Source: a virus. Taken from it: a DNA stretch of 43,018 nt. Where the stretch lies: positions 1 to 43,018 of IMG/VR virus record IMGVR_UViG_3300021091_000148; one strand, given 5' to 3'. Of this stretch, positions 5,425 through 37,963 are shown in pieces. The notes under the pieces are model-generated. The model had not been told where the DNA came from and searched no databases. It was given only the letters and a program-made list of their open reading frames with translations. Position numbers and translations under genes: made by a program. Every line of letters starts with the position of its first letter. The stretch's first letter is position 1.

Positions 5425-7143
5425 ATGGCTTACTTTAAACGCGACCGGTTTAGCGGAATTGCACCGGGCGTATCCCCCCGCCTCTTAAATGACCAGTTTG
5501 CTCAGACCGCTGAGAATATTGATTTTGAATCCGGGCGACTGACTCCGACTACGAACGACACCGAGGTCTACACCCTACAGAGTGGGCTTCGCCGGTCGAT
5601 CTACTACTATCGAGATATCAACTGGCTTGAGTGGGACGAGGACGGCGTCAAGGCCGTACCTGGTCCCATTCCAGGGGACACCCTGGCACGCCTGTACTTT
5701 ACTGGCGACGACTACCCGCGCTACGGCACGGTCAGTACGCTTATATCTGGCAACGCCGGGTACCCGGCCAACAGTTATCGCCTGGGAGTTCCGGCCCCTG
5801 CCGACGCGCCGACCATAGTTAAAACCGGTACGGCAGACCCGAATCAGACTCCAGACGATGTCTCTTATGTCTACACCTTCGTAACAGCCTTCGGCGAGGA
5901 AGGGCCTCCGAGCCCGGCTACCGCGCCGATTGAGCGCACGGACACCGAAACGGTCACGATTACGATGCCCGCCAACCAGCTGCCGAGTGGCAACTACAAC
6001 TTCGGCAACGGTTCGTTAAAGCGTATCTACCGGTCCAATACCGGCTCCACGAATACGGCGTTTCAGTTCCTGGCCCAAGTGTCTTTGGCTACTACCACCT
6101 ACGCCGACACGACCCCGTCAGCAGGTCTTGGGGAAGTGCTCCCAAGCGAGACCTGGATTGGCCCCCCGGACGACAACGTCTCGCTGTACCCGGACGGCCC
6201 GATGAAGGGTCTGATAGCCGTGGCAAACGGCGTGTTTGCCGGGTTCACCGGTAAACGGTTCTGTGTCAGTGAACCGTTCCTTCCGCATGCCTGGCCGGTG
6301 GATTACCGGATCACGGTCGAGGAGGACATCGTGGCCATCGGGGCCGTGGCCAACGGTGTTGTCGCTCTGACCAACGGCACCCCCTACTTCATCACGGGAA
6401 CTGACCCCAGTGCGATGACCGCGATTCGTGTTGACCTGCCACAGGCCTGTATCAACGTGAACAGCGTGGTCGACATGGGGTCGGTCCTGTTTTACGCAGG
6501 ACCAGACGGTTTGTGCGCCGTGAGCAGTGGTGATGGGCGCGTGGTCACCGAAGGGTTGATCTCGTCCAGGCAGTGGTCCGACATCTTCGCTCCGACCTCC
6601 TACCGTGCCTTTAGGCACGAGAACACCTACGTGGCGTTCTGGACTGAGGGCGGGGTCAACAAGGGCTTTGTATACGATCCACGGGCCGAGGAAGCAGCCC
6701 TCTCGACACTGACCACGGCTAACGCGGTACGCGGCGGGTACATGAATCCGAAGGACGGTGAGCTTTACCTAATCGTCAACAACAAAATTGCCAAGTACCG
6801 TGGCAGTAGCACAAAACGCACTCTCACCTGGAAGTCTAAGCAGCTCGTTCTGCCGAAGCCAACCAGCATGAGCTGGGTGTCCGTGCACGCTCAGGCTTAC
6901 CCGGTTGCAGTGAAGGTCTGGGCGGACGGTACGTTGATCGCCCACTACAGTTTGTCGTTTGCAAACAACACTTACACCCAGACCGTTACCGTACCAAACG
7001 GCGCTACGACCGGATCATTACGTGAGCCTGTGATGCGTCTTCCTGCAAAGCTAGCTCAGGTGTGGGAGGTCCAGGTGTCGGGGGCCGTTGAGATCGATGA
7101 AGTCTGCCTTGCCCAGAGCATGGATGAGATAGCTGGCTTATGA
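5425..7143 (+). CDS. Virion structural protein, probable tail hub or propeller
   Basis: A 572-aa protein with a good ATG and GAGGT ribosome site. The N terminus (RFSGIAPGVSPRLLNDQFAQ, then TAENIDFESGRLTP) is a signature I associate with a large podovirus structural protein. The body carries repeated beta-rich stretches such as GLIAVANGVFAGFTGKRFC and GMVNKGFVYDP-like blade segments, suggesting beta-propeller architecture, with an FN3-like stretch (VSYVYTFVTAFGEEGPPSPA) near residues 145-165. It overlaps the next fibre gene by 4 bases (ATGA), so the two are translationally coupled. I infer a tail or hub component that carries the J-like fibre. Confidence 0.72.
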   Translation: MAYFKRDRFSGIAPGVSPRLLNDQFAQTAENIDFESGRLTPTTNDTEVYTLQSGLRRSIYYYRDINWLEWDEDGVKAVPGPIPGDTLARLYFTGDDYPRYGTVSTLISGNAGYPANSYRLGVPAPADAPTIVKTGTADPNQTPDDVSYVYTFVTAFGEEGPPSPATAPIERTDTETVTITMPANQLPSGNYNFGNGSLKRIYRSNTGSTNTAFQFLAQVSLATTTYADTTPSAGLGEVLPSETWIGPPDDNVSLYPDGPMKGLIAVANGVFAGFTGKRFCVSEPFLPHAWPVDYRITVEEDIVAIGAVANGVVALTNGTPYFITGTDPSAMTAIRVDLPQACINVNSVVDMGSVLFYAGPDGLCAVSSGDGRVVTEGLISSRQWSDIFAPTSYRAFRHENTYVAFWTEGGVNKGFVYDPRAEEAALSTLTTANAVRGGYMNPKDGELYLIVNNKIAKYRGSSTKRTLTWKSKQLVLPKPTSMSWVSVHAQAYPVAVKVWADGTLIAHYSLSFANNTYTQTVTVPNGATTGSLREPVMRLPAKLAQVWEVQVSGAVEIDEVCLAQSMDEIAGL

Positions 7144-9950
7144 CCAAAGCGCGTACAACAAACGCGACCGAGATACCTGGTTTAGGTAAACCGCCGGGGG
7201 ATATTTCTCCGGCGCTTCGTAGGTACCTGGAAAGTATCTCTGAGGCTCTGCAGATTCGCCTCGGTCAACGCGGCGATGCCCGCGATCGAGCGGTCACGTT
7301 TCGTGAGTTGCTGGACTCTGGTCTTGCTATAGAGCTCGGCAGCAACCCGTATCAAATTGGTAAACCGCCCGCTGATCCTGACCCAGATCCTCCCGCGAAC
7401 GGTACGCCCACTGCGCCGACAAACTTCTCGGCTAATGGCGGGTACTCGATTGTTACCTGCTTCTGGGACTACCCGAACTACGGGCCGCACTCTCACACGG
7501 AAATCTGGCGACATACATCTAACGTCATTGGTAATGCTCAGCTGGTCGGCATTAGCTCTGGTATTTCTTTCATTGACCCGGTTGGGCAGAGCAAGACGTA
7601 CTACTACTGGGCTCGCCACGTATCTACGTACGATATTGCTGGCCCGTTCCACTCGGCCAACGGCGATGAAGCAGTAACGGCAGCGGATGTCGATGCGCTG
7701 CTTACCGTTTTGACCGGGGCTATAACTGAGTCACAGTTGTTTAATACGTTAGGCGAACGGATCAATTTGATTGATGCCAGTGCTTTAGTAACAAACTCCG
7801 TTGCATGGCGTGTAGCGCAAGAAGCCACTGCTCGTGCAGCTGCAATTGCTTTACTCGATGACGCTATGGAGTACAACAATGCTACTGCCTACAAGAAAGG
7901 CGACATTGTTGTTTACAACGCAAATCTGTATGAAGCTAAAAGCTCGACTACTGGTAACTTGCCAACTAACACTACGTTTTGGACACTTTTAGGTAGCTAT
8001 ACAAGCATAGGCGACATAGTAAAAAACAACGGTTCTAAAATCGTTGAGATTAATACGGTTACATCGGACAGTACTTCTGCAGCAGCGCAAGCTATTGTGG
8101 GGTTAAAAAGTACCGTAGAGAATCCGACGACGGGGGTAGTTGCTACTTCTACTGCGCTTGGGGCATTAACTACTAGAGTTTCAACTGCAGAAGGAAACAT
8201 AGTATCAAATAGTTCATCGATCACTTCGTTGAGCAATGCTGTAAATCACCCCACTACTGGACTTGCTACCAGAGCTTCGTCAACGGCGTTGAGTGCTTTA
8301 GATAGCCGTGTAACAGCAGCAGAAGGAGTAAACACTTCGCAATCGACGTCTATTACGTCATTGCAAAATACTATTGATCACCCTACTACTGGACTTGCTA
8401 CCAGAGCTTCGTCAACGGCGTTAAGTGCTTTGGATAGCCGTGTAACAGCAGCAGAAGGAGTAAACACTTCGCAATCGACGTCTATTACGTCATTGCAAAA
8501 TACTATTGATCACCCTGCTACTGGACTTGCTACCAGAGCTTCGTCAACGGCGTTGAGTGCTTTGGACAGCCGTGTGACTAGTGCTGAAGGTACGATAACA
8601 GCCCAAGGTAGCTCAATTACGGCTCTTCAGAGTACCGTAAATAATGCTACAACTGGTGTTGTGGCCACAGCTAACGCTGTTAGTCTGTTAAACACCGAGA
8701 TATTTCCTAACGGTACAGCCCAAGCTTCGTACATTGACCAAGTTAACGCTACAGTTGGCGCTAACACAGCGGCTATCCAGGCTGAAGCTACGACGCGTGC
8801 AACTGCTGATGGTACTTTGTTCGGGCAGTTCACCGTAAAGGTTGATCTAAACGGGCATGTATCTGGTTTTGGGCTTGCTTCGACGCTTAACAACGCAGCG
8901 CCGAGTTCTGAGTTTATTGTCCGTGCTGATCGGTTTTCGATTGCGTCGCCCGGTCAGGCGACAATCGTTCCTTTTATTGTTCAAGCTACTGCTACCACCA
9001 TCAACGGAGTTGCAGTACCAGCTGGTGTCTACATCAGCGACGCGTTCATTCGCAACGGTACGATCACGAAAGCCAAAATTGGCATCGGTGAGATCGATAA
9101 CGCCAACATTGCCAGTCTTAATGCGGACAAGATCACGGCGGGCTCAATTGATACTGCTCGTCTTACGATCGACAACGTCACGCTCGACTCGGTTTATGAT
9201 CCAAGCATTGGCCGCAACCGGCTGAAGATCCGCGATCTCGGCGTTGACGCGGCTCAGATCAATACTGCTGCTATCAAGACAGCAAAGATTGATGATCTCG
9301 CTGTCAGCACGATAAAGATTGCTGGCAACGCAATCACGCAGCCCGAGGTGTACACAGCGAATGATGTATACATACCGACCGCGTCTGCGATCATGTTGAC
9401 GAATAGTGGGGTAAATGAAAGCTACAACTTCGTTGGTTCACATAACGGTGATTACGAGTATCAGTTTCTTTACTTCGACGAGAATGGTATCCCGATATAC
9501 GACTTCGTCTTTGTAGGGGCAGGGAATGGTGATCACGTTAGGGTTATCACTTATACCGCGCCGACGTTTGCAAACGCGATCACCGTCATAGAAACCCCAA
9601 CGGTAACTGTGGGCGTTGACGCTACCGCCGCTGTGCAGATTGTGTACTACGCAACGCACGACGGATCAATCTACACGTACAACGATTCCGGTCAGCATAT
9701 ATTCATGCTTCTCGACACCGGCGTTGGGTATCGCCTTGTGGCGCAGCAGCAAGTAGGACTTCGCACTGACAGTGGTGCAGACACAATGGCTTCTCTTCCG
9801 ATTGCTATGACCTTTACGGCAAGAAACATTACGACTGCAAGAATAAAAATTTTGACTGGTAGTCGTCGTGTAGATTTGTCAATGGGAAACGGAAGCAACC
9901 CGTGCTGGCTGCGTAACAGCACTATCTCGCTGCTGGGTGCAAAAAGATGA
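7140..9950 (+). CDS. Lambda J-like central tail fibre / host specificity protein
   Basis: A 936-aa protein. Residues 70-180 look like an FN3 domain (TAPTNFSANGGYSIVTCFWD). Residues 240-285 form a chitin-binding type 3-like module (YNNATAYKKGDIVVYNANLY, TTFWTLLG). Residues 310-520 are heptad-like shaft repeats (SALDSRVTAAEG, SITSLQNTI), including three near-identical 44-residue units. Residues 560-620 match the DUF1983 domain of lambda J proteins (GQFTVKVDLNGHVSGFGLAS, EFIVRADRFSI). Further on are AKIGIGEIDNANI-type repeats and a distal beta domain. J-type proteins form the tail tip and bind the receptor. Here the carbohydrate-binding module suggests a glycan receptor (inference). Start MTKART overlaps the upstream gene by 4 bases. 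Confidence 0.85.
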   Translation: MTKARTTNATEIPGLGKPPGDISPALRRYLESISEALQIRLGQRGDARDRAVTFRELLDSGLAIELGSNPYQIGKPPADPDPDPPANGTPTAPTNFSANGGYSIVTCFWDYPNYGPHSHTEIWRHTSNVIGNAQLVGISSGISFIDPVGQSKTYYYWARHVSTYDIAGPFHSANGDEAVTAADVDALLTVLTGAITESQLFNTLGERINLIDASALVTNSVAWRVAQEATARAAAIALLDDAMEYNNATAYKKGDIVVYNANLYEAKSSTTGNLPTNTTFWTLLGSYTSIGDIVKNNGSKIVEINTVTSDSTSAAAQAIVGLKSTVENPTTGVVATSTALGALTTRVSTAEGNIVSNSSSITSLSNAVNHPTTGLATRASSTALSALDSRVTAAEGVNTSQSTSITSLQNTIDHPTTGLATRASSTALSALDSRVTAAEGVNTSQSTSITSLQNTIDHPATGLATRASSTALSALDSRVTSAEGTITAQGSSITALQSTVNNATTGVVATANAVSLLNTEIFPNGTAQASYIDQVNATVGANTAAIQAEATTRATADGTLFGQFTVKVDLNGHVSGFGLASTLNNAAPSSEFIVRADRFSIASPGQATIVPFIVQATATTINGVAVPAGVYISDAFIRNGTITKAKIGIGEIDNANIASLNADKITAGSIDTARLTIDNVTLDSVYDPSIGRNRLKIRDLGVDAAQINTAAIKTAKIDDLAVSTIKIAGNAITQPEVYTANDVYIPTASAIMLTNSGVNESYNFVGSHNGDYEYQFLYFDENGIPIYDFVFVGAGNGDHVRVITYTAPTFANAITVIETPTVTVGVDATAAVQIVYYATHDGSIYTYNDSGQHIFMLLDTGVGYRLVAQQQVGLRTDSGADTMASLPIAMTFTARNITTARIKILTGSRRVDLSMGNGSNPCWLRNSTISLLGAKR
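8261..8590 (+). repeat. 132-bp tandem repeat in the J-like fibre gene
   Basis: The word ACTTGCTACCAGAGCTTCG occurs at 8261, 8393 and 8525, exactly 132 bases (44 codons) apart. Copies one and two are nearly identical; the third follows them for about 65 bases and then diverges. More degenerate units flank them at protein level. They lengthen the coiled-coil shaft and are prone to copy-number change by recombination. Confidence 0.92.
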
Positions 9951-16447: not shown

Positions 16448-18994
16448 TCAGTTGTAATTACTGGTATTAGTATAGCTAATGTCTGGATTTTGCAACAGTT
16501 GTCGTTCGTCTGTTGCATCAAAGTAGACCTTGATTAGTCTCTGAATCTCGAGCTCGTCTTGTTGCCAATTTACAACAACGCCTGTAACAGGATGCGTTTC
16601 TCGGCTGGCTCCTGGCATACGCTTACGGCTAGGCACTATCCCAAACTTACTCATTTGCTTGGCGAATTCTCGCTGTGACAAACGGGGGTTTGCTTCGGTT
16701 TGTACGTGAAAAACCGTACGCAAATGCTCCATTGGGATTACCGTATATGTGAACTTGGCTAAGGCAATCCAGCCTTTGACGATGCGCTGCGCAGTAGATA
16801 CTTCGTTCATGTTTTGCGCGTTAGAAATGTTAATCTCGAGGATGTCGCTAAAAAACAACAAATCTCCTCGCTTTAGCGCTTCGGCAAACTCTTCCATGAT
16901 AGACATCGATACATGCCGCATTTGGTTCTTGGCAGTGTTGTCGATGCAAGTCTGAACCATGCGTTCGTCTATCTTGAAGGTCTGCAGATAACCAGCGAAT
17001 GCGTCAAGCTCTTCAGTCATAAGGTCGAGCTCTTTAAGAAGCTTGGGGTACGCCTCTTCGATCTTGCATTCCTGGCGGGGCGGGATGTTGTACCGCCGAT
17101 CGCCGTCCTCGATCTTGATGGCGTCGTTCCTGTTGGTTAGGAAGATGAAATTCGTGTAGTTTGGAATCTCCACTTGGTTGGTCCGCATTGCGCGGATCGT
17201 GATGGTGTCTTCCGTGATCTGGTTCTTGAGCTTGTCGGCGATCTTCATTGTGCCGATTGATGACGACGACATGTGGAACTCGTCGACAACTAGGAACAGC
17301 GCGTTGCGCATGTACAGGTTGAAATGCTCTTCGATGTTCTGTAGCGCCTTCATTGGTACGTGCTCGCTGCCAAACAACGGGCGAAGCACTTTGCTGTAGA
17401 ACAGACCTTTACCTGTACCGGGTACGCCGCCAAAGACCCAAGCGGTCTTGGCTTTTTGGCGGGTCTGGAAGATGTACGACAGCCAGTTGATGAAGTGCTC
17501 GAACTCGGCGTCGCCGTTGCCTAGTACGTGATGTACCAACGTGTAGATACGTGGGCAGACGTTCGAGATCAGTTTTGCGTGGCCATATTCCAATGGCTTG
17601 TTTGGAATTTTGGGGTCAAGCATGTACTTGGTCTTGCGGTACATGTTGACGAAATACGGTACGTTTTCGAAGTCGATCGACTCGCTGTTTGATGTTGGAT
17701 TAAAGACAACACGTGCATCCCGGACAAAGTCGGGTGCTGGCCGTCCATGGCTCAGCATAAAACCTTCGATACTGGTCTTGCTGGTCGGCACGAGCGGAAA
17801 CTCTTCCGTGAACTGGTTGAGGTTTGGGTCGTACACGCCGTTGTAGTAGATGTCTGTGTAGTAGTCGCGAAGTACGATTGGGTAGTTGGACTTGCCAGAC
17901 TTTTCAAGGTGCGTCTTAAAGAGCTCGAATATGCTCTTGTAAAATTCTTTGTCGGCTCTTTCGATTTCGAATATCGGCTCGTCCTTGAAATTGAACATGT
18001 AGGTTGGACGTTCGATATTGAAGTAATACCCGCCGCTGTCTCCGCCGTTGATATTGCATCGGATCCATGGCATAGCTGAAGAGTCGGCAATGCTAATAGA
18101 CATCTTGTCCGGATTAAGCAAGACTTCTTGGGCCTGGTGGTCAATGGTCATTGTCTGCAGCTTTGCTGATTTTTTCTTGATACCGCCGGACTGCCGCAAC
18201 TCATCTTTCAATGCTTGACCAGTTTGAAACGTTGTCTCTGGATTTAGAGACGTCATCAAGGCCGCCAGGTCGAACGATGCATTCGTTCGATCAACACGAA
18301 CGATACGGTCTTGATCAGAGACAAACGGGTTCTGTAGCGGGTCTTCGAATGTCGGCGGCGCAATGAAGATTAGCTTGCTGTTGTCTGCAACTGATACGTC
18401 GAGCGGATACCGCAGCGACTGGCCATTGGCGCTGAGCGTCAGTTGCGTCTTGAAAAGATCAGACGTGTAGTTGACGTGCTGCAGCCAAAGCTTGATTGAC
18501 TTAGGCGGCATTGGCACGGTCAGCAACATAAAGATGTGCATCGATATGCGCTCGCCCTTGAGGCCGAGACTAGCTGATGCTTGTGCTATGTAGCTTACGT
18601 CGTGCAGCTGGGTTGGTAGGTCAGCAATGATCTGCTCAGCAATTAACTGGACGTCGTTTGCTGTGAGCTTTGCTGATCTGATGATACGACGCGGCAATGT
18701 GATTGCGTCGAAATCAAGAACAAGCAACCCGTTCAGGGCAAGCCGGTCGCTTTTTTGTGCGCGGCTTTCAGAGACAAGCGCGCGTTTAAGCGCGCCTTTG
18801 AGCATGCAGTGCCCGGAGTTTGAATGCGTGCGAATAAGGTCTTCCAGCTGGACCAAGCCCGCCTGGGAAACCTGTATTGGATGCTCGTGTGAAGTTACGT
18901 CTTTGACATAGGGATAAGGTCTTGTGTCACCGTTGGTGAAGTAATGCTTACTCAGCGAGAAGCCGTTCGTGGCTTCCAAAAACGTAACCTTCAT
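16448..18994 (-). CDS. Primase / superfamily 3 helicase
   Basis: An 848-aa fusion. The N-terminal half has LLVLDFDAI near residue 88, an acidic pair compatible with a primase-polymerase active site, followed by SASLGLKGERISMHIFMLL. The C-terminal half is a DUF5906/D5-like SF3 helicase: Walker A GGVPGTGKGLFYS near 521, Walker B ALFLVVDEFHMS near 570 and motif C YTNFIFLTNRNDAI near 615. A winged-helix-like C-terminal region (LSQREFAKQMSKFGIVPSRK) follows. The protein would unwind and prime at the replication fork, working with the family A polymerase two genes upstream. Only the small csrA gene lies between them. Confidence 0.9.
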   Translation of the reverse strand: MKVTFLEATNGFSLSKHYFTNGDTRPYPYVKDVTSHEHPIQVSQAGLVQLEDLIRTHSNSGHCMLKGALKRALVSESRAQKSDRLALNGLLVLDFDAITLPRRIIRSAKLTANDVQLIAEQIIADLPTQLHDVSYIAQASASLGLKGERISMHIFMLLTVPMPPKSIKLWLQHVNYTSDLFKTQLTLSANGQSLRYPLDVSVADNSKLIFIAPPTFEDPLQNPFVSDQDRIVRVDRTNASFDLAALMTSLNPETTFQTGQALKDELRQSGGIKKKSAKLQTMTIDHQAQEVLLNPDKMSISIADSSAMPWIRCNINGGDSGGYYFNIERPTYMFNFKDEPIFEIERADKEFYKSIFELFKTHLEKSGKSNYPIVLRDYYTDIYYNGVYDPNLNQFTEEFPLVPTSKTSIEGFMLSHGRPAPDFVRDARVVFNPTSNSESIDFENVPYFVNMYRKTKYMLDPKIPNKPLEYGHAKLISNVCPRIYTLVHHVLGNGDAEFEHFINWLSYIFQTRQKAKTAWVFGGVPGTGKGLFYSKVLRPLFGSEHVPMKALQNIEEHFNLYMRNALFLVVDEFHMSSSSIGTMKIADKLKNQITEDTITIRAMRTNQVEIPNYTNFIFLTNRNDAIKIEDGDRRYNIPPRQECKIEEAYPKLLKELDLMTEELDAFAGYLQTFKIDERMVQTCIDNTAKNQMRHVSMSIMEEFAEALKRGDLLFFSDILEINISNAQNMNEVSTAQRIVKGWIALAKFTYTVIPMEHLRTVFHVQTEANPRLSQREFAKQMSKFGIVPSRKRMPGASRETHPVTGVVVNWQQDELEIQRLIKVYFDATDERQLLQNPDISYTNTSNYN

Positions 18995-19012: not shown

Positions 19013-19219
19013 TTAGTCTTGCTTTTCCTCCTTGGTAGTGCAGGGATTTTCTTCGTCGAATATTTCCTGTCGATCTATAACGATCGTAGGTTCGGCGACA
19101 AAGGCCAGTCGTACATTATACCTATCTACGCGGGATACTTTTACAGTGGCAATGGTTTTGTTGTCGCGATGGATAACGACTGATTGCCCAAGACGTCTTG
19201 TTAGAACCAAGCGCGACAT
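19013..19219 (-). CDS. csrA: CsrA/RsmA-family RNA-binding regulator
   Basis: A 68-aa protein aligning over residues 1-55 with bacterial CsrA: SRLVLTRRLGQSVVI for LILTRRVGE..I, a central beta strand pair (VKVSRVDRYNVRLAF) and VIDRQEIFDEE for VHREEIYERI. The residues that contact GGA RNA in CsrA are kept: L4/L6 with R8-R9 in strand one and R50 in strand five. The tail (CTTKEEKQD) is phage-specific. CsrA dimers bind GGA in hairpin loops, usually over ribosome sites, and block translation. The start overlaps the polymerase stop as TAATG, so it is co-translated with polymerase. Targets may be host or phage mRNAs. Confidence 0.88.
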   Translation of the reverse strand: MSRLVLTRRLGQSVVIHRDNKTIATVKVSRVDRYNVRLAFVAEPTIVIDRQEIFDEENPCTTKEEKQD

Positions 19220-21456: not shown

Positions 21457-22587
21457 TCAAGCAGACAAATAAACTGTTTCGCCAAATGGCGCTACAAGGT
21501 TTTTGCTGACGGATACCCATAGTGTTGGAGCGCATGCTGCTTCTTCAGCGGACGCAAAGTCTTCTGCGCCTGTTTCTAAATCAGTAAGATAAACAATAGC
21601 TTGTACGTCCGGGTGGTTGTCGCGCAAATATTCAAACGCTGGCGTAAACGCTGTACCGCCACGCCCTTTGAACGAAGGAAGCTGTGACGCTTTTAAGCGT
21701 TCACCCGTATCAAGAACTTTTACGTCTTGGACTTGGGCGTCTGCTTGGATCCAGACAATTGATGACGGCTGGACCTGAGCCATGACTGCATCTACTTCAG
21801 AGATGAACTGAGCGCCCTGCTCGTCTGTAATGGATCCACTAGAATCGTTGACGACTGCAACTTTGCCACAGGTCTCTTGGTACATAGACGGAAGATATTC
21901 ATCTTCTGAAATCCATGCTCGGTGAGGCTTGCGCCACGAATAGTCGTCTCGGTTAAGTTCCGTGAAAAACGGCCAGAGGACCGTGCGCCAGTCAACCTTG
22001 GGTTGGAGTATTTCCGAGATAAAGAGCTCGATGTTACCAGGGAGTTTGCCACGTGCTTTGGCTACAGCAGCAGCTTCGCCTACGGCGATCTGCCAGTTGG
22101 ACTCTTGTTCAGCAGCAGAGCCTGCTTCAAGGCTGCCGCTTGTTGCGTCAAGCACGATACCCCAGGCGCAGGGCTTGGGGCGTTTGCTGGGCTCTTTGTT
22201 GATAAGGTTGTAAATTTCTTCCGCGCCCATACCTTTGTAGGCAGGGTCTAAAAGAGCGCCTTTTGGCAGGATAAATCCTGATTCGATCAGGTGGTCGTTG
22301 ATTGCGTAATCGCAAGCAATATTCCACAGCTGGTGATCACGTTCTTGTCTACGTGTCTGATGGTTAAATACACAATGCAGAACCTCGTGAGCCAGGAGCC
22401 CACGAAGCTGCATTGGATCTAGCTTAAGAATATAAGCAGGATCGTAGTACAGATGAATACCATCTGTAGCTGCGGTCTTAATATCTTCACGTTGCACAGG
22501 GCGAAGACGAATGGCCAACGTTCCGAAGAACGGCTGGTCCATTAACAGCTGCGAACGCGCTTTGACTAGCGCGCCTTCGGCAGACAT
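21457..22587 (-). CDS. VWA-like protein with N-terminal metallopeptidase domain (DUF2201 type)
   Basis: A 376-aa protein. Residues 60-80 hold LLAHEVLHCVFNHQTRR, an HExxHxxxxH zinc motif (H67, E68, H71, H76), in the putative metallopeptidase domain DUF2201_N. The C-terminal half is a VWA-like domain with metal-ion-dependent adhesion residues: VVNDSSGSITDEQ (DxSxS), KGRGGTAFTP (Thr) and IVYLTDLETGAED (Asp). Such proteins pair with MoxR AAA+ ATPases, as here two genes upstream, probably as a chaperone-like machine that remodels a target complex. The gap between this gene and the 225-aa neighbour is one base, so all three are one unit. Confidence 0.88.
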   Translation of the reverse strand: MSAEGALVKARSQLLMDQPFFGTLAIRLRPVQREDIKTAATDGIHLYYDPAYILKLDPMQLRGLLAHEVLHCVFNHQTRRQERDHQLWNIACDYAINDHLIESGFILPKGALLDPAYKGMGAEEIYNLINKEPSKRPKPCAWGIVLDATSGSLEAGSAAEQESNWQIAVGEAAAVAKARGKLPGNIELFISEILQPKVDWRTVLWPFFTELNRDDYSWRKPHRAWISEDEYLPSMYQETCGKVAVVNDSSGSITDEQGAQFISEVDAVMAQVQPSSIVWIQADAQVQDVKVLDTGERLKASQLPSFKGRGGTAFTPAFEYLRDNHPDVQAIVYLTDLETGAEDFASAEEAACAPTLWVSVSKNLVAPFGETVYLSA

Positions 22588-22588
22588 A

Positions 22589-23266
22589 TCAACCTCCTAC
22601 GAGTTTTGCTGTGAGTACTACTTCGTTGACAAATGCGTCGTCGAACTGAACTTCTTCCTTGATTTGTTGTGCGCGCGCAACACGGGTGATGCGCTCGTAC
22701 ATGCGAGTCTTGGCTTCGTGAGGAACGAAAGACTCACCAGCAGGCCAGGCAAGTAGCAGCTGCTTTACTGTCGAACATTGCTTGAGCAAGCTTCGAATCT
22801 TGGTGGAGTAGTCTGCTCTTTCGATGCTGTGCTGATGCTTGTCGAGTGCTGCTTGTTTGCAGCCATTTAACAGTTGAGACTGAACTTGTGGCCCAAGTTC
22901 GTCAAAGTTGAACTCGGGCATGCTCCAGCTGTTTGTCCTATAAATAGGAAAAGCTGGAACAAACTCGAATACGAGTTGTTCGGTGGTATTTGAGTGGAAT
23001 CCTGTTTTGCTGCTGAGACACAAACGGGCGCAGTCTTCCCTATTGATTCCTTTTGTTGGTCCGCCAAACGAATTAAAAGAGTACCTGTGTTGTCGATCAA
23101 ATTGATCTTTTAACGCTTTGTACGGTTCCGAAGATAATACAGCATCTCTAACAAGATTAGTAAGCTCTGTAGTTGGCTTAGGTTCGGGCCGCGCCGAATT
23201 AAAAGCTTCCATAGCTTTGTTATAAATTGTGTCACGTAAGTCATTGGTCATTCTTACTGAAGCCAT
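22589..23266 (-). CDS. Unknown protein between MoxR and VWA genes, possibly Nmad5-like
   Basis: A 225-aa protein beginning MASVRMTNDLRDTIYNKAME. The start (R-x-TND-RD-I...A) and STVKQLLLAWPAGESFVP near residue 165 recall the Nmad5 family (nucleotide-modification-associated domain 5), but I cannot confirm this by eye. It is tightly placed between the MoxR ATPase (11 bases) and the VWA protein (1 base), so it is a likely adaptor or substrate for that pair. No membrane segment is present. An uncharacterised accessory protein is the cautious reading. Confidence 0.65.
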   Translation of the reverse strand: MASVRMTNDLRDTIYNKAMEAFNSARPEPKPTTELTNLVRDAVLSSEPYKALKDQFDRQHRYSFNSFGGPTKGINREDCARLCLSSKTGFHSNTTEQLVFEFVPAFPIYRTNSWSMPEFNFDELGPQVQSQLLNGCKQAALDKHQHSIERADYSTKIRSLLKQCSTVKQLLLAWPAGESFVPHEAKTRMYERITRVARAQQIKEEVQFDDAFVNEVVLTAKLVGG

Positions 23267-23277
23267 AGGGTTCTCCG

Positions 23278-24276
23278 TTAGATAACAACGTCTACGTTAG
23301 CAGACGTCCATGATTTAAACGCCGGGTGATTCAGGAGCTGACGCTCTTTTGCGACGCAGTCGCGAATCAATACAACTTGGAACTCACGAGGCATGCGTCG
23401 GTTGTAACGCATGATGGCGTCGAAGTTACCTTGATCGACCCTCGATGCCAGTGCGCCAGCAATGGCGTAAAGCGTCGAAGGATCTCCGGGTACGCGTGTG
23501 GTTGATGGGTTCTGCATGAGATCGTCGATGTCCGGCAGATCCTTGCGGATTGCACGATGTGCGAGGTACTCGCCTGCAGGGCCGTCGCCGATCAAAGACG
23601 AAACGCCGTAGAACATGTCTTCCATGAACGGCAGTTTGCGGTTGACCATCTCCCAGGTACGGGGCGACGGAAACGCGTAGTCCGCGTTATCCATGCTGTG
23701 CAGGAGACCAGGGCGGTAACGCAAGAACGACACGATGCTGTCGTCAATGTTGCGTTGTAAAGCCCAGGCTACCCAGTCGTCGATGTTCGGCTCGAGAGTG
23801 TAGTGCGCAAACCGGTTCTTGACCGGGGTTGGCATTTCGTGGATCGCGGCTCGATCCTGGGCTCGGTTGCCAGCTGCTACGATGATGGTGTTTTCCGGAA
23901 GGACGTACGTGCCAATCTTGCGATCAAGAGTTAATTGCAGCAGTGCGTTCTGTGTGGCTTTTGGAGCATTGGGCAACTCGTCAATAAGCAGCACTACCGT
24001 GCCGGTGTAGTTGGTTTCCGGATAATCCTCGGGCACACCGTATCTTGTGCGGTATGAACCGTCGGCTTGCTCAACTACCTTGAGGCCGCCGCGAACGTCG
24101 ACAGGGTCAAACAGGTTGGCACGAAGCTCAAAGACTTTGGCTAAAAGATCTTCAGCAAACTGATAAACAATTTGCGATTTACCCAGACCTGGAGGACCCC
24201 AGATCATGGTTGGCACGCGAGCAAGCGCGTTGGCACGGAGTTCTGACTTGAGTTGAGAGGGACGAATAGTACGCAT
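23278..24276 (-). CDS. MoxR-family AAA+ ATPase
   Basis: A 332-aa protein. Walker A is IWGPPGLGKSQ (residues 25-35), Walker B is VVLLIDELPNAPKATQNALL (near 93-112), sensor 1 is IIVAAGNRAQD and the arginine-finger region is PTPVKNRFAHYTLEP, followed by a helical lid (DDWVAWALQRN; FPSPRTWEMVNRKL). These are features of MoxR ATPases, which act with VWA-domain proteins as chaperones for metal insertion or complex activation. The partner is encoded 690 bases downstream on the same strand. A structured 210-base leader precedes the gene. ATG with AAAGGACC ribosome site. Confidence 0.93.
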   Translation of the reverse strand: MRTIRPSQLKSELRANALARVPTMIWGPPGLGKSQIVYQFAEDLLAKVFELRANLFDPVDVRGGLKVVEQADGSYRTRYGVPEDYPETNYTGTVVLLIDELPNAPKATQNALLQLTLDRKIGTYVLPENTIIVAAGNRAQDRAAIHEMPTPVKNRFAHYTLEPNIDDWVAWALQRNIDDSIVSFLRYRPGLLHSMDNADYAFPSPRTWEMVNRKLPFMEDMFYGVSSLIGDGPAGEYLAHRAIRKDLPDIDDLMQNPSTTRVPGDPSTLYAIAGALASRVDQGNFDAIMRYNRRMPREFQVVLIRDCVAKERQLLNHPAFKSWTSANVDVVI

Positions 24277-24514: not shown

Positions 24515-24817
24515 TTATTTCTTGATGTCGATTACTTCGACCCAAGCAAATTTGCGGTACGGGAAACTGCGTGTGCGAACCCAACGTAGTTCCTCGTGTT
24601 TGACGTGTCGTTTTGCAATGAACAGGAATATTGAGATGAAGGCACCGGCCCAAAGGCCTGCCATCATGCCAGCGAAAGTGCCGGCGAATATCCAGATGAA
24701 AAAGAACGTCAGGCAGATGTCAAGAAAAATGTCGTGTTTAGCGATGCGTTTAAGGTTGAGCTTTAGTAATAGAAATATTATTGCGATGGCGGCTAGTGCG
24801 CCTTCTAATATGCCCAT
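24515..24817 (-). CDS. Small multi-span membrane protein
   Basis: A 100-aa protein with about three hydrophobic helices: ALAAIAIIFLLLKL (7-20), FLDICLTFFFIWIFAGTFAG (31-50) and MMAGLWAGAFISIFLFIA (51-68). A basic cytoplasmic tail follows (KRHVKHEELRWVRTRSFPYR). It is the most downstream member of the early small-gene block, just before the structured RNA. The function is unknown. A membrane-acting host-takeover or superinfection-exclusion protein, or a holin, would fit, but nothing discriminates. Confidence 0.65.
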   Translation of the reverse strand: MGILEGALAAIAIIFLLLKLNLKRIAKHDIFLDICLTFFFIWIFAGTFAGMMAGLWAGAFISIFLFIAKRHVKHEELRWVRTRSFPYRKFAWVEVIDIKK

Positions 24818-27444: not shown

Positions 27445-28089
27445 TTACGCAGCACGGAGCTGCTTCATGAAGTCACTCACTTCGTTTGCTTCCTGTTCCT
27501 CTTGGAGACGGGAGACAATCGAGTCCATAACAGGCATGGCTTCGTGGAAGTTTTCACAAGTCTTGTCCACGTACCAGTTGCCGTGCTCGTCGCGTGTGCG
27601 TTGTTCGAACACGTAGAGCGGGCTGATGTCGGTGAGATACGCCATCTTGGCAGCCAGAAGTGACTGCAGTTTGTTCAGTGCAATGAAGTCACTGTCAACA
27701 AGCGACGGAATGTGCTCGTTGCTGGCGTAGACACCTACCCAGTCACCGACGTCTTGCGAGAAGTCGATGCCGTTGCCGAGGTCAGGCTTGTCGTTTGCAA
27801 TGTACAGACGACGCGCTGCCCAACAGACGCCATTCATCACGGACTGAACGAAAGTGAGAAGACGCTCCGGCTTGAACGGAGGTCCTTCGACCGGAACGCC
27901 CTGCTCCAGTTCCGCACGAACTGCGGCCTGGCGCTGACGCTGCAAGCTGAAGAACGCAAGAGCAATACGCTCGAGCGGGTCGTTTGCTTGCTGCGACTCG
28001 ACGAACTTGGCGATGGTGCCAATGGTTGTGTTTTTCTCGGACATATAGCCGATGACATTGGGGATGAAGCTTTGGTCTTTAACAGTCAT
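27445..28089 (-). CDS. Hypothetical 214-aa early protein
   Basis: A 214-aa soluble protein (FIPNVIGYMSEKNTTIGTIA; RERLLTF-like stretch at residues 75-90; IPSLVDSDFIALNKLQSLLA; MDSIVSRLQEEQEANEVSDF). It is mostly helical with a glutamine-rich middle (SLQRQRQAAVRAELEQG). It is the largest gene of the early small-gene block, and a strong terminator follows it, so it is probably well expressed. Base composition is GC-richer than its neighbours and like the structural genes. I do not recognise the family. Confidence 0.75.
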   Translation of the reverse strand: MTVKDQSFIPNVIGYMSEKNTTIGTIAKFVESQQANDPLERIALAFFSLQRQRQAAVRAELEQGVPVEGPPFKPERLLTFVQSVMNGVCWAARRLYIANDKPDLGNGIDFSQDVGDWVGVYASNEHIPSLVDSDFIALNKLQSLLAAKMAYLTDISPLYVFEQRTRDEHGNWYVDKTCENFHEAMPVMDSIVSRLQEEQEANEVSDFMKQLRAA

Positions 28090-28477: not shown

Positions 28478-28507
28478 ACTGACCGCGAGACGCGAAGCGT
28501 CGAGCGT
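28478..28507 (-). repeat. 30-nt dispersed repeat, copy 2
   Basis: This copy shares its 30-base length and most positions with copies at 29577-29606 and 31160-31189. Its core is GACGC-GAA-GCGTC (28489-28501), a perfect 5-bp stem. It lies 34 bases upstream of the leftward ATG at 28443. Confidence 0.85.
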
Positions 28508-29293: not shown

Positions 29294-29530
29294 TCAGTCG
29301 GTGTACACGGTGACTTCGAGTTCGCCGTTGGCGAACGCGCGGACCTCGCCACCGAAGTGGCCGGGGTGTTTCTCGCCTTTCTCGATCGATGCCCACTGGT
29401 CATCGGTTAGTTCACCGTTGTTATCGACAAGGGTGACAATGCGATAGTCCGAGTACGCCATCTCGTGTGGCTCGAGGCGCACGCGATGGATGTTTTTGTT
29501 ATAGGCGGAAGTTCTGGATATGAATTTCAT
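29294..29530 (-). CDS. Hypothetical 78-aa early protein
   Basis: A 78-aa protein (FISRTSAYNKNIHRVRLEPH; YSDYRIVTLVDNNGELTDDQ; GEVRAFANGELEVTVYTD), with an ACGAGG ribosome site. It looks like a small beta-rich domain with no membrane segment. It is the first leftward gene after the iteron region and has a 30-nt repeat 46 bases upstream of its start, so it may head a transcription unit. Confidence 0.65.
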   Translation of the reverse strand: MKFISRTSAYNKNIHRVRLEPHEMAYSDYRIVTLVDNNGELTDDQWASIEKGEKHPGHFGGEVRAFANGELEVTVYTD

Positions 29531-29576
29531 GGTTAGCTAACCTCGTTGGCTAATTGATTAAAGTGCACAAATGGAC

Positions 29577-29606
29577 ACTGATCACGAAGCGCGAAGCGAT
29601 GAGCGT
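29577..29606 (-). repeat. 30-nt dispersed repeat, copy 3
   Basis: This copy agrees with the other two at 26 or more of 30 positions except for a G/A mismatch inside the 5-bp stem (AGCGC-GAA-GCGAT). It lies 46 bases upstream of the ATG at 29530, at the left edge of the iteron gap. Confidence 0.8.
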
Positions 29607-30059
29607 GGTCCGTGGTTAGTGATTAGTGGTTAGTGGCCACTAGTATAAAAATGGTACAACTACTGGATATACAACCAGTAGTGTGTGCAGGGAACAGTCA
29701 AATGTGTGCAGCAAACAGGGGTATGTGTGCTGCAATAAAGTTGTTGTGTGCAGTAATTTTTCCTTATTTATCAGTTGTGTGCAGTGTGTGCAGTCATTTT
29801 TATGTACTAAACAAAAAAGAGCATGTCTCTTAAAAAAATGTGTTGGTTTCCCAGAGAAACTGGAAACCCCCCCTTTTCAGAGCACACAGTGTTAAGTGCT
29901 TGTTTTTACTGGAAAGTTTAGTGCACACATTTCCAGCACACATCGCACACACTGTTGTTTTCATACAACAGAGCCACGTCGGGCCTTTTGTGCACGGTCC
30001 ACGGTGCACGCTTCACTGGCCACGATTCACGATTCACGGTCCACGGGGCACGTGCACGT
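29607..30059. other. Candidate replication origin: phased TGTGTGCAG iterons and inverted flanks
   Basis: Non-coding region. TGTGTGCAG occurs at 29682, 29703, 29724 (one mismatch), 29745, 29776 and 29785. The first four are spaced exactly 21 bases, two helical turns. To the right, GCACACA-type copies in inverted orientation lie at 29882, 29923, 29936 and 29945. Between them is an A/T-rich core (29794-29845) with a GGTTTCC/GGAAACC hairpin and a run of seven C. The outer flanks (29604-29640 and about 30015-30050) are imperfect inverted repeats built on GTGGTCCGTG. Iterons plus an A/T core fit an origin; a regulator-binding array is the alternative. Confidence 0.6.
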
Positions 30060-30118
30060 AGCCGTTGAACCGAGGTTAAAGAGCCACGGATCGTGGTCCG
30101 TGGCTCTTGGTTAACGGC
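30060..30118 (-). terminator. Long hairpin after the 74-aa membrane protein gene
   Basis: GAGCCACGGA (30081-30090) pairs with TCCGTGGCTC (30097-30106), and the outer AGCCGTT/AACGGCT arms (30060-30066, 30112-30118) extend it. On the minus strand it follows the stop codon directly and is trailed by TTTAACC. It probably separates the 30118-31114 genes from the iteron region. Confidence 0.6.
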
Positions 30119-30342
30119 TATTGGTCACGGGCACCGAAGGTTGAACCATACTTCTTGAGCATGCGCTCACGACGACGACGTGCGAAGAACTTGTAGACGT
30201 CCTCAATCGCTAGTTCAAGGGCGACAACTATGCCGCCCAGGATGAGGCCTAGCATGAAGATAGGTAGGGAGAAGATAAGTCCGACGACAGTCAGGACAAT
30301 GGCAACACAGACGAGGAAGTTAACGGTAAAGCGAGACAACAT
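30118..30342 (-). CDS. 74-aa two-span membrane protein with basic tail
   Basis: I choose the ATG at 30340-30342 (GGAGTACCTACC upstream) over a start at 30360. The product has one long or two short hydrophobic helices (VNFLVCVAIVLTVVGLIFSL; PIFMLGLILGGIVVALELAI), then DVYKFFARRRRERMLKKYGS. The positive-inside rule puts the Arg-rich C terminus in the cytoplasm. It lies among the earliest leftward genes. A host membrane or superinfection-exclusion role is possible. Confidence 0.68.
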   Translation of the reverse strand: MLSRFTVNFLVCVAIVLTVVGLIFSLPIFMLGLILGGIVVALELAIEDVYKFFARRRRERMLKKYGSTFGARDQ

Positions 30343-30395
30343 GGTAGGTACTCCGTACATAGGATGGGGAGGTTGGAGGTCCCTCCCCGATGGGA

Positions 30396-30668
30396 TTAGG
30401 CAATGGCCTGCTCGATGGCTTCAGGCTGCTGGAGCTGATCGAAGTTGAGCTGCTCCTGAACAGGGGGCTGAAGGGTGAGCCGGTGGCTGAGATATGGTTT
30501 GCCTGCTTTGCTGGTGTTGAGCCAGGTAGATACTCTGTAGATACCAGGCTGAGTGACGTGTACGAGACCGACGTACTGCGGATCTTGCTTGTCGGGGCGA
30601 CGAGCGTTGGCGAAGGATGTGCCGGTGTTGGCGGCGGGTATACGAGGAGCGTTGGTTGAAATAGACAT
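30396..30668 (-). CDS. Hypothetical 90-aa protein with hairpin-borne ribosome site
   Basis: A 90-aa protein (SISTNAPRIPAANTGTSFAN; YVGLVHVTQPGIYRVSTWLN; QEQLNFDQLQQPEAIEQAIA): a disordered N terminus, a beta-rich middle and a Gln-rich end. I do not recognise it. Its start lies in a 28-base leader identical to that of the 57-aa gene at 30941-31114, in which the AGGAGG Shine-Dalgarno is held in a GCCC-AGGA-GGGC hairpin. Strong but regulated early expression is inferred. Confidence 0.7.
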   Translation of the reverse strand: MSISTNAPRIPAANTGTSFANARRPDKQDPQYVGLVHVTQPGIYRVSTWLNTSKAGKPYLSHRLTLQPPVQEQLNFDQLQQPEAIEQAIA

Positions 30669-31159: not shown

Positions 31160-31189
31160 ACTGACCGCGAATCGCGAAGCGATGAGCGT
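31160..31189 (-). repeat. 30-nt dispersed repeat, copy 1
   Basis: The core is ATCGC-GAA-GCGAT (31171-31183). It differs from copy 2 at four positions, all in the stem and all compensated. It lies 45 bases upstream of the first leftward start codon. Confidence 0.85.
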
Positions 31190-31954: not shown

Positions 31955-32233
31955 ATGCTGCAAAAAGTCCAGGTCTTTGCTATAGAGGGCTTTGAAGCGG
32001 CCGTTATTGGTACCGCCATTAGGGGCGGGAACGAGGTGCTGGTGTACGACGGTTATCTGGCCGAGGCCATTGCCCTCGGTCTGGAGCCTAAGGCCGCCAG
32101 CCTCAAAGAGTATTTAATGAAGATTGAGCTCGGCAAGCTTGGAGATAAGGCACCAGTTTTCGTGTTCTTGGATGTAATAAACGTTGGAGACAGTACCGAC
32201 TCCGTCAGAGAACCAGGAACTCCAGTCCACTGA
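31955..32233 (+). CDS. Hypothetical 92-aa protein before small terminase
   Basis: A 92-aa protein with a GGGGGG-type ribosome site upstream of ATG. It reads as alpha/beta (KVQVFAIEGFEAAVIGTAIR; EVLVYDGYLAEAIALGLEPK). It overlaps the proposed small terminase by 50 bases in another frame. No family is recognised. Its position fits a packaging accessory. Confidence 0.62.
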   Translation: MLQKVQVFAIEGFEAAVIGTAIRGGNEVLVYDGYLAEAIALGLEPKAASLKEYLMKIELGKLGDKAPVFVFLDVINVGDSTDSVREPGTPVH

Positions 32234-32696
32234 ACAGGTAGAACTCCAGTCATTCATGCCCTACATGGGGCTGTCACTGGGGGATCTAACTGCTCAGCAG
32301 GAGCGTCTTGTTCTTTATATGTCTCGTGGCATGACGACGGCAGCGGCCGGTCGTGCTGCGGGGTATACGACTCCGCAAGCCGCATACGATGCGGCGAAGC
32401 GCCCGGCCGTGGTCAAAGCGTTGAACTACTTTAGGGAGCAGTTCCGTGAAGAGGTGCATTTTACCAGAGTCCATGCGCACTCGATGTATCTGGATGCGTA
32501 CAACTCTGCAGCGACGTCTACCGAGATGAAGAACGCGACCGACTCATTAGTCAAGCTCCACGGTTTGGCGGCTCCGGACCACGCGACGCAGATCAACATC
32601 AACGTGACACCGGCCCACATGGAACGGATGTCTGATGAGGATCTGCTGAAGCTGGTCGGTAGAGACGAGAAGTATCTGGAGCCTGACTCCACTTGA
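32184..32696 (+). CDS. Terminase small subunit
   Basis: A 170-aa protein. LTAQQERLVLYMSRGMTTAA, then GRAAGYTTPQAAYDAAKRPA and VVKALNYFREQFRE, is a Terminase_2-like helix-turn-helix followed by helices. Then SATSTEMKNATDSLVKLHGL is the oligomerisation segment typical of small terminases. It would recognise the phage DNA start site. The start is uncertain: TTG at 32184 gives the full frame, and an ATG at 32256 (MPYMGLS) is an alternative. The last bases overlap the large terminase start. Confidence 0.82.
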   Translation: METVPTPSENQELQSTEQVELQSFMPYMGLSLGDLTAQQERLVLYMSRGMTTAAAGRAAGYTTPQAAYDAAKRPAVVKALNYFREQFREEVHFTRVHAHSMYLDAYNSAATSTEMKNATDSLVKLHGLAAPDHATQININVTPAHMERMSDEDLLKLVGRDEKYLEPDST

Positions 32697-36943: not shown

Positions 36944-37963
36944 ATGGCTGACGACAAGAAGGACGTGACGTTTGATGTGATGCCCGGTGCCGATCCCGTT
37001 GAGGCGGCCCCGGAGCAGAAGTTCGACTTTAATTTTGGGCTCGGCGAAGAAATTAAAGCCGCAGTTGCGGAACCGGCCACGGAACCGGCCATCGAGGAGG
37101 CAGAAGCGCCAGTAGTTTCGGAGGCAAAGGCGGAAGTTGAACCGGTGATCGAACCGACGCCGCTTGAAACGCCGGAAGTTGCTCCGGTTGTTCCGGAAGC
37201 GGAGGCGAAAAAAGCCCCAGAATCGGAGCCGAAGCAGAAGATGGTGCCGAAATCGCGCCTAGACGAGGTGTTGGCCAAGCAGAAAGCGCTGCAGAAGCAG
37301 CTCGACGACCTCATGGCGGCTAAAACCGCTGCCGAAACGGCTCCTGAGAGCTACGATTTCGCGGTAAAAGAGGTGGAGTACCAGAATATGGTGCTCGACG
37401 GTCAGCATGAGAAGGCTGCGGCCCTTCGTGCCGAGATCCGCAAGGCGGAACGCGCACAGCTCGAGTTCGAGTTGACGCAGAAAGTGGAGCAGAAGGTCAC
37501 TCAGAGCCAGCAGATATCTGCTTTGCAGCAGGCCGCAGCTGATCTGGAGGCCAATTTCCCTGTTTTTGACCGCGCTAGCCCTGATTACAACGAAAAGTAC
37601 ACGCAGGAAGTCATCGATCTGCGCGACGCCTTTATTGTTAAAGGCGAAAACCCGGTCGCGGCCCTGTCTAAGGCAGCGAAATTTGTCCTGCGGGAGTATG
37701 ATCTAATCGATATGAGCGGAGACACCACTCCTTCCCTGGCTGTCGCCCCGACTCCGAAGGCACCTAGCGTCGATGAGGTGGCCAAAAAGCGCGCAGAGGT
37801 GGCCCGCAAACTAAAAGCTGCTGAATCTCAACCCCCCGAAATGCCGGGAGAGAGCTCTGCAGCACGCGGCGAGAAAGCGATCGATCTTTCTACGTTGACA
37901 GAAGACGAGTTTAACGCTCTTCCTGCCGCTACCCTTAAGCGTTTGCGCGGAGATATTCTCTAA
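36944..37963 (+). CDS. Scaffolding protein
   Basis: A 339-aa protein, very rich in Ala, Glu, Pro and Lys. Residues 1-90 are disordered and acidic (EAEAPVVSEAKAEVEPVIEP), and residues 95-200 are helical (SRLDEVLAKQKALQKQLDDL; EIRKAERAQLEFELTQKVEQ). The C terminus is LTEDEFNALPAATLKRLRGD, a short helix like those scaffolds use to bind coat protein. Its place between portal and coat and this composition fit a procapsid scaffold. It overlaps the next gene by one base. Confidence 0.85.
   Translation: MADDKKDVTFDVMPGADPVEAAPEQKFDFNFGLGEEIKAAVAEPATEPAIEEAEAPVVSEAKAEVEPVIEPTPLETPEVAPVVPEAEAKKAPESEPKQKMVPKSRLDEVLAKQKALQKQLDDLMAAKTAAETAPESYDFAVKEVEYQNMVLDGQHEKAAALRAEIRKAERAQLEFELTQKVEQKVTQSQQISALQQAAADLEANFPVFDRASPDYNEKYTQEVIDLRDAFIVKGENPVAALSKAAKFVLREYDLIDMSGDTTPSLAVAPTPKAPSVDEVAKKRAEVARKLKAAESQPPEMPGESSAARGEKAIDLSTLTEDEFNALPAATLKRLRGDIL

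Follow-up and report, generated by a model that had tools for sequence, protein, structure and literature searches.

The window, that is, the whole 43,018-nucleotide virus record of a tailed freshwater phage analyzed here, contains an array of short repeats in a gene-free gap, and this element probably serves as an iteron-type origin of replication in a lytic phage that has a primase-polymerase/helicase resembling that of NrS-1. The replication origin, which had been put forward in a preliminary description of the sequence, is supported as the best reading of the element, although it is not proven. An origin fits the observations better than an operator array or a packaging site, considering the single locus, the two arms with a spacer, the DnaA boxes and the lack of a promoter match.

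The phage and its iteron array

The early genes of the phage form a leftward block (including those for helicase, exonuclease, primase, polymerase A, MoxR ATPase and DUF2201), and the late genes form a rightward block (with TerS-like protein, TerL, portal and major head protein). The phage has a replisome of its own: a PrimPol/SF3 helicase, polymerase A, a SNF2/DEAD-type helicase and an exonuclease. The presumed replicative helicase/primase (16448-18994, minus strand) is a DUF5906 primase-polymerase with an SF3 helicase, of the NrS-1 type, and its SF3 region matches PDB 6k9e/6k9c, by sequence and by fold. Among cultured phages, the closest found were Aeromonas phage phiA008 and the Pseudomonas Kochitakasuviruses phiR18/KPP25, whose primases share about 31% identity and whose TerL proteins share 41-48% identity with those of the window; a scan of genome contigs yielded a single relative, on a contig binned with a Neomarinimicrobiota MAG.

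Several other parts of the window deserve mention in their own right. Between the primase and polymerase genes lies a gene for a small CsrA-like protein (19013-19219, minus strand), which is present in all freshwater and marine relatives checked and was not found in phiR18 or phiA008. The MoxR ATPase, the Nmad5 protein and the DUF2201 vWA/metallopeptidase protein adjoin each other (21457-24276, minus strand), and these neighbors are retained in every freshwater and marine relative checked. A 132-bp tandem repeat (8245-8575; 2.5 copies, 96% match) is located inside the long rightward ORF 7140-9950. An SSB-like protein is encoded at 30396-30668.

The iteron array in the window is real, and the features of the locus are as follows.

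29531-30117, no strand: gene-free gap with the whole element, between two leftward ORFs
29604-29640, no strand: left flank of GTGGTTA heptamers (GTGGTTA x3.6 at 29612-29636)
29682-29690, plus strand: iteron 1, TGTGTGCAG
29703-29711, plus strand: iteron 2, TGTGTGCAG, 21 bp from iteron 1
29724-29732, plus strand: iteron 3, variant TGTGTGCTG
29745-29753, plus strand: iteron 4, TGTGTGCAG
29757-29775, plus strand: conserved block TTTTTCCTTATTTATCAGT, from alignment (TTTTTCCTTATAAATCAAT in relatives)
29776-29793, plus strand: iteron pair 5-6, head to tail, 9 bp apart, the left half of the conserved core
29794-29881, no strand: central spacer, A/T-rich on the left, the presumed opening region
29845-29868, no strand: hairpin GGTTTCCCAGAGAAACTGGAAACC (DNA fold z = -2.8 over 29800-29880)
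29882-29888, minus strand: inverted iteron 7, GCACACA
29923-29929, minus strand: inverted iteron 8
29936-29942, minus strand: inverted iteron 9
29945-29951, minus strand: inverted iteron 10, 9 bp from iteron 9
29993-30056, no strand: right flank of CACGGTC heptamers (CACGGTC x7.7 at 29993-30046)
30079-30108, minus strand: hairpin with a 12-bp perfect stem, just past the stop of the leftward ORF 30118-30360

The gap, originally given as 590 bases long, is indeed free of genes but measures 587 bp. Among the six words claimed for its left part, five (at 29682, 29703, 29745, 29776 and 29785) are exact copies of TGTGTGCAG, whereas the one at 29724 carries one mismatch; the intervals of exactly 21 bp between the first four words and the inverted GCACACA copies on the right side (29882, 29923, 29936 and 29945) were both recovered. 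When both orientations are counted, TGTGTGC/GCACACA occurs 10 times within 270 bp, and the largest cluster of a 7-mer per 300 bp comprises 10 copies at the array and 4 elsewhere in the window. In 60 dinucleotide shuffles of the window, the maximum for any 7-mer was 3-4 copies per 300 bp, so that the array lies far above chance.

Two hallmarks of iteron origins can be recognized here, namely, short, helically phased repeats in non-coding DNA (four at 21 bp, pairs at 9 bp) and an adjacent A/T-rich opening region. The latter, which the preliminary description had reported together with a hairpin, is modest: the A/T fraction is 0.70 at 29780-29839, compared with roughly 0.4-0.6 around it; the hairpin is present, with a C7 tract next to it (29867-29873) that is also found in the relatives G003, G008 and G013. 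The TTTTTCCTTATAAATCAAT block that adjoins the left pair is kept, with small changes, in the freshwater arrays, including those with other words. The search for a protein-coding match at this locus revealed no coding or RNA-family match over the array: a blastn comparison of the gap with phage and plasmid records gave no match, and Rfam gave nothing above the threshold (SAM_alpha at 29525-29588 was sub-threshold only).

An operator array could, in principle, look similar: a phage regulator would bind the words and switch the leftward early genes, perhaps along with the rightward late ones, on and off, and the words would change as operator and regulator evolve together. The array adjoins the start of the leftward early genes, near the early/late divergence, and a TGTGTGC array also lies close to HTH-like genes in L022, a prophage-like, unrelated contig. 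However, regulators usually serve several promoters whereas exact TGTGTGCAG is confined to the array within the window, a search of the 29300-30300 region revealed no sigma-70-like promoter, and the combination of 10-15 sites over 250-400 bp, a spacer and, in several lineages, a DnaA box fits an origin better. Thus, we regard an operator array as unlikely.

The GTGGTCC-type inverted flanks, another feature noted at the outset, consist of 7-bp tandem repeats that form a 36-bp inverted repeat with 72% complementarity; the right flank is the inverse of the left one and is likewise in the 21-bp register. The flank heptamers look slippage-made and vary among relatives, as would be the case if the repeats had expanded selfishly or neutrally, without function, for example, by slippage in a non-coding gap. 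For the array itself, such an expansion is extremely unlikely: the iterons are mostly non-tandem, and they retain their spacing and two-arm orientation even as the word and the inter-word sequence change.

The hairpin at 30079-30108 has an RNA fold of -24.2 kcal/mol (z = -6.0), and a terminator scan of it found no T-run match; it is possibly the end of the ORF 30118-30360 transcript. In addition, a 27-bp element of the GACCGCGAATCGCGAAGCGATGAGCGT type occurs in the window at 28481-28507, 29580-29606 and 31163-31189, with two of the copies about 45-50 bp upstream of leftward start codons and one at the left edge of the array. This element resembles a small hairpin, in which paired changes are seen when relatives are compared, and is possibly an early promoter or leader element.

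Conserved layout and changing words in related phages

All close relatives and most of the distant ones carry an array at the same place, with differing words. Among near-complete genomes, syntenic arrays near the early/late junction were identified in G002, G006, G008, G010, G014, G016-G020 and phiR18, and arrays are also present in more than 20 shorter contigs. The sole near-complete exception among the genomes examined is phiA008, which has no comparable array despite encoding the same kinds of primase, polymerase and helicase. The arrays of G002 and L012 are essentially identical to that of the window, and the array type of the window is also found in G007 and G013 (primase identity to the window of 97% and 87%, respectively). 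The about 15 freshwater contigs of class B (primase identity of 76-79%, where covered) and G005/G006 (80%) have TGTGTGCAG arrays with different inter-word sequence and different neighboring small genes. Other relatives have other words: TGTGTGTCG in G003, TGTGTACCA in G008, TGTGCCAG in G010, TGTTCCAC in G020, GGTTCCAC in the marine G014 and G016-G019, TGTTACA in L042/L051/L083 and TGTYACGA in phiR18. Judging from inspection, these words would be variants of one ancestral word.

The shared core layout consists of a direct pair 7-9 bp apart, followed by a spacer of 77-117 bp (measured start to start, from the pair to the first inverted copy, with the arrays oriented alike) and then by inverted copies, which often come in pairs 7-9 bp apart. 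The layout is exact in the window, G013, G006, L006, L016, G010, G020, L051 and phiR18; in G003, G008 and L007, the direct pair includes one degenerate word (sequence read by eye), and the inverted half is incomplete by exact match in G016 and G017. On the strength of these sequence comparisons, the constant layout with a replaced word suggests that the origin and its initiator protein change together. A broader proposition, that there is one origin architecture in which the word was replaced several times (at least seven words) and which works with a still unknown class of phage initiators, is tentative and, on balance, improbable.

Very similar TGTGTGCA arrays with inverted copies were also observed in L005 (12046-12293), L008 (10223-10460), L010 (4717-4954) and L029 (6751-6988), contigs for which no protein similarity to the window phage was detected. 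In L010 and L029, the TGTGTGCA array directly adjoins a large primase-like gene. These arrays might reflect either convergence or a wider iteron system.

In class B, 13 contigs have a perfect DnaA box, TTATCCACA, 10-12 bp outside the outermost iteron, and TTATCCACA is also found beside the arrays of G005 and G006; in all these cases, the array-side box is the only exact copy in the available sequence (for G006, a 38 kb contig). The only exact TTATCCACA of phiR18, at 37297, is about 250 bp from the last iteron; of the two copies in L042, one lies at the array and the other away from it. A DnaA box is missing from the arrays of the window phage and its nearest kin, the window has none at all, and in the complete marine genomes checked, the boxes are away from the array or absent. 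For the genomes with boxes, a hand estimate gives about 0.28 expected array-box coincidences versus 3 independent ones seen (P about 0.003). A DnaA box near the iterons is common in iteron origins and is not obligatory. Marine relatives also have two exact DnaA boxes that are separated by 200-280 bp and are located off the array, several kb past the helicase gene (18280/18487 in L068, 55463/55745 in G017 and 34263/34470 in G018).

The array could also be thought of as a pac site, with the repeats bound by the small terminase subunit (32184-32696) for headful packaging. Pac sites may be made of short repeats, as in P1 and SPP1, the distance between the array and the terminase genes is about 2 kb, and the contigs G001 and G007 end within it. 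This possibility is quite improbable given that the usual location of pac sites is in or beside terS whereas, here, other genes separate the array from terS, that no packaging role is known for DnaA boxes at the array, and that contig ends at repeats are to be expected from assembly.

The inflection of the GC skew that was proposed as a check of the origin is not seen: the cumulative skew keeps rising across the array in both the window and G002. In the marine G016, G017 and G020, the cumulative skew minimum is less than 500 bp from the array, and the flip coincides with a nearby flip in gene direction. The third-position skew is lower on the early than on the late coding strands in 11 of the 12 genomes, phiR18 being the exception, a pattern that does not point to bidirectional forks. 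The skew pattern is neutral for a unidirectional origin and gives no support to a bidirectional one; in the clade of the window, GC skew is uninformative as an origin test.

The putative initiator

If the array is an origin, a phage initiator would bind the words on both arms, with cooperativity provided by the 9-bp pairs and by the helical phasing of the direct copies. The A/T-rich center would then open, with the help of the host DnaA at the array-side box in some of the relatives, after which the NrS-1-like primase-polymerase/SF3 helicase and the family A polymerase would be loaded. Because the array and the initiator must match, the two would change together, which would lead to different words in sister phages.

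In agreement with the preliminary description, no known Rep gene was detected: RepA_N, Rep_3 and lambda-O-type proteins are absent by Pfam/PHROGs among the window proteins scanned. Neither of the two initiators that it suggested gained support. Among the proteins scanned, neither Pfam nor PHROGs revealed a small HTH protein, and the winged helix of the primase/helicase is nearly constant while the word changes. Specifically, the predicted C-terminal recognition helix of the primase (SQREFxKxMS) is nearly constant across phages with different words, with few group-specific changes within it; in the full-length primase model, the helicase part was poor (shallow alignment), and the C-terminal region alone was used. 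The near-constancy of this modeled helix argues weakly against the primase as the reader of the word; the wing or other parts of the primase could still play this role.

Other early proteins were considered and rejected. The C-terminal changes in the MoxR ATPase (23278-24276) cluster in G003, yet this candidate was dropped because of its neighborhood, with the MoxR protein encoded beside the DUF2201 vWA protein, and because no homolog was found in phiR18. The product of ORF 24515-24817 co-occurs with the arrays but reads as a short membrane protein, and it is 92-95% alike between G003 and several phages with different words. ORF 27445-28089 yielded an all-helical model with no significant PDB match, and a homolog was not found in the marine phages.

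The fast-evolving Nmad5 protein (22589-23266) has a homolog in all array-bearing genomes checked, phiR18 included, and none was found in the array-less phiA008. By this co-occurrence, Nmad5 is a candidate initiator; its N-terminus, MASVRMTNDLR, resembles, in our own reading only, the start of a ribbon-helix-helix domain.

Relationship to known origins

Iteron origins with cognate initiators are known in plasmids and phages, including lambda O/ori, P1, pSC101 and RK2. Those origins and the present element have in common phased short direct repeats beside an A/T-rich stretch and, in some of the relatives, a DnaA box; the differences are the two opposed arms, the conserved spacer and the lack of a known Rep gene alongside, as well as of a DnaA box in the window itself. 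In satellite phage P4, the alpha protein is a primase-helicase that binds through its C-terminal winged helix. The P4 origin resembles the present one in its short iterons, in both orientations, and in the presence of a primase with an SF3 helicase, but here the predicted recognition helix of the primase winged helix does not follow the word, and a second, ori/crr-like array as in P4 was not found in the window.

In the PLE satellites of Vibrio cholerae, the iterons of the non-coding origin covary with the DNA-binding domain of the initiator between close relatives; there are three semi-palindromic iterons of roughly 30 bp, and the initiator is a RepA_N protein (PMC8263062), a type that, as already indicated, the scan of the window proteins did not find. 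By analogy, PLE would be a precedent for the paired change of iterons and initiator, and rivals that target the origin could drive the switching of words, as in PLE/ICP1. The polymerase of the deep-sea phage NrS-1 (PMC7102993; PDB 6k9c, 6k9e, 6lrb), the SF3 helicase region of which is matched by the window primase, comes from a phage in which an 8-nt recognition sequence, present in two copies rather than as an iteron array, has been considered a possible origin.

A description of an array-type origin was not found in the Kochitakasuvirus papers searched, which cover the literature incompletely. Iteron origins are a known kind, and the novelty is that lytic phages of one group have replaced the word repeatedly while the layout stayed constant. 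Beyond a few models, the origins and initiators of most phages are unknown. The present analysis predicts an origin, the layout of which can be checked, for a large group of phages from freshwater and the sea as well as for Pseudomonas phage phiR18, which can be cultured, and the recurrent change of the word within a constant layout amounts to a natural experiment in the co-evolution of an initiator and its site.
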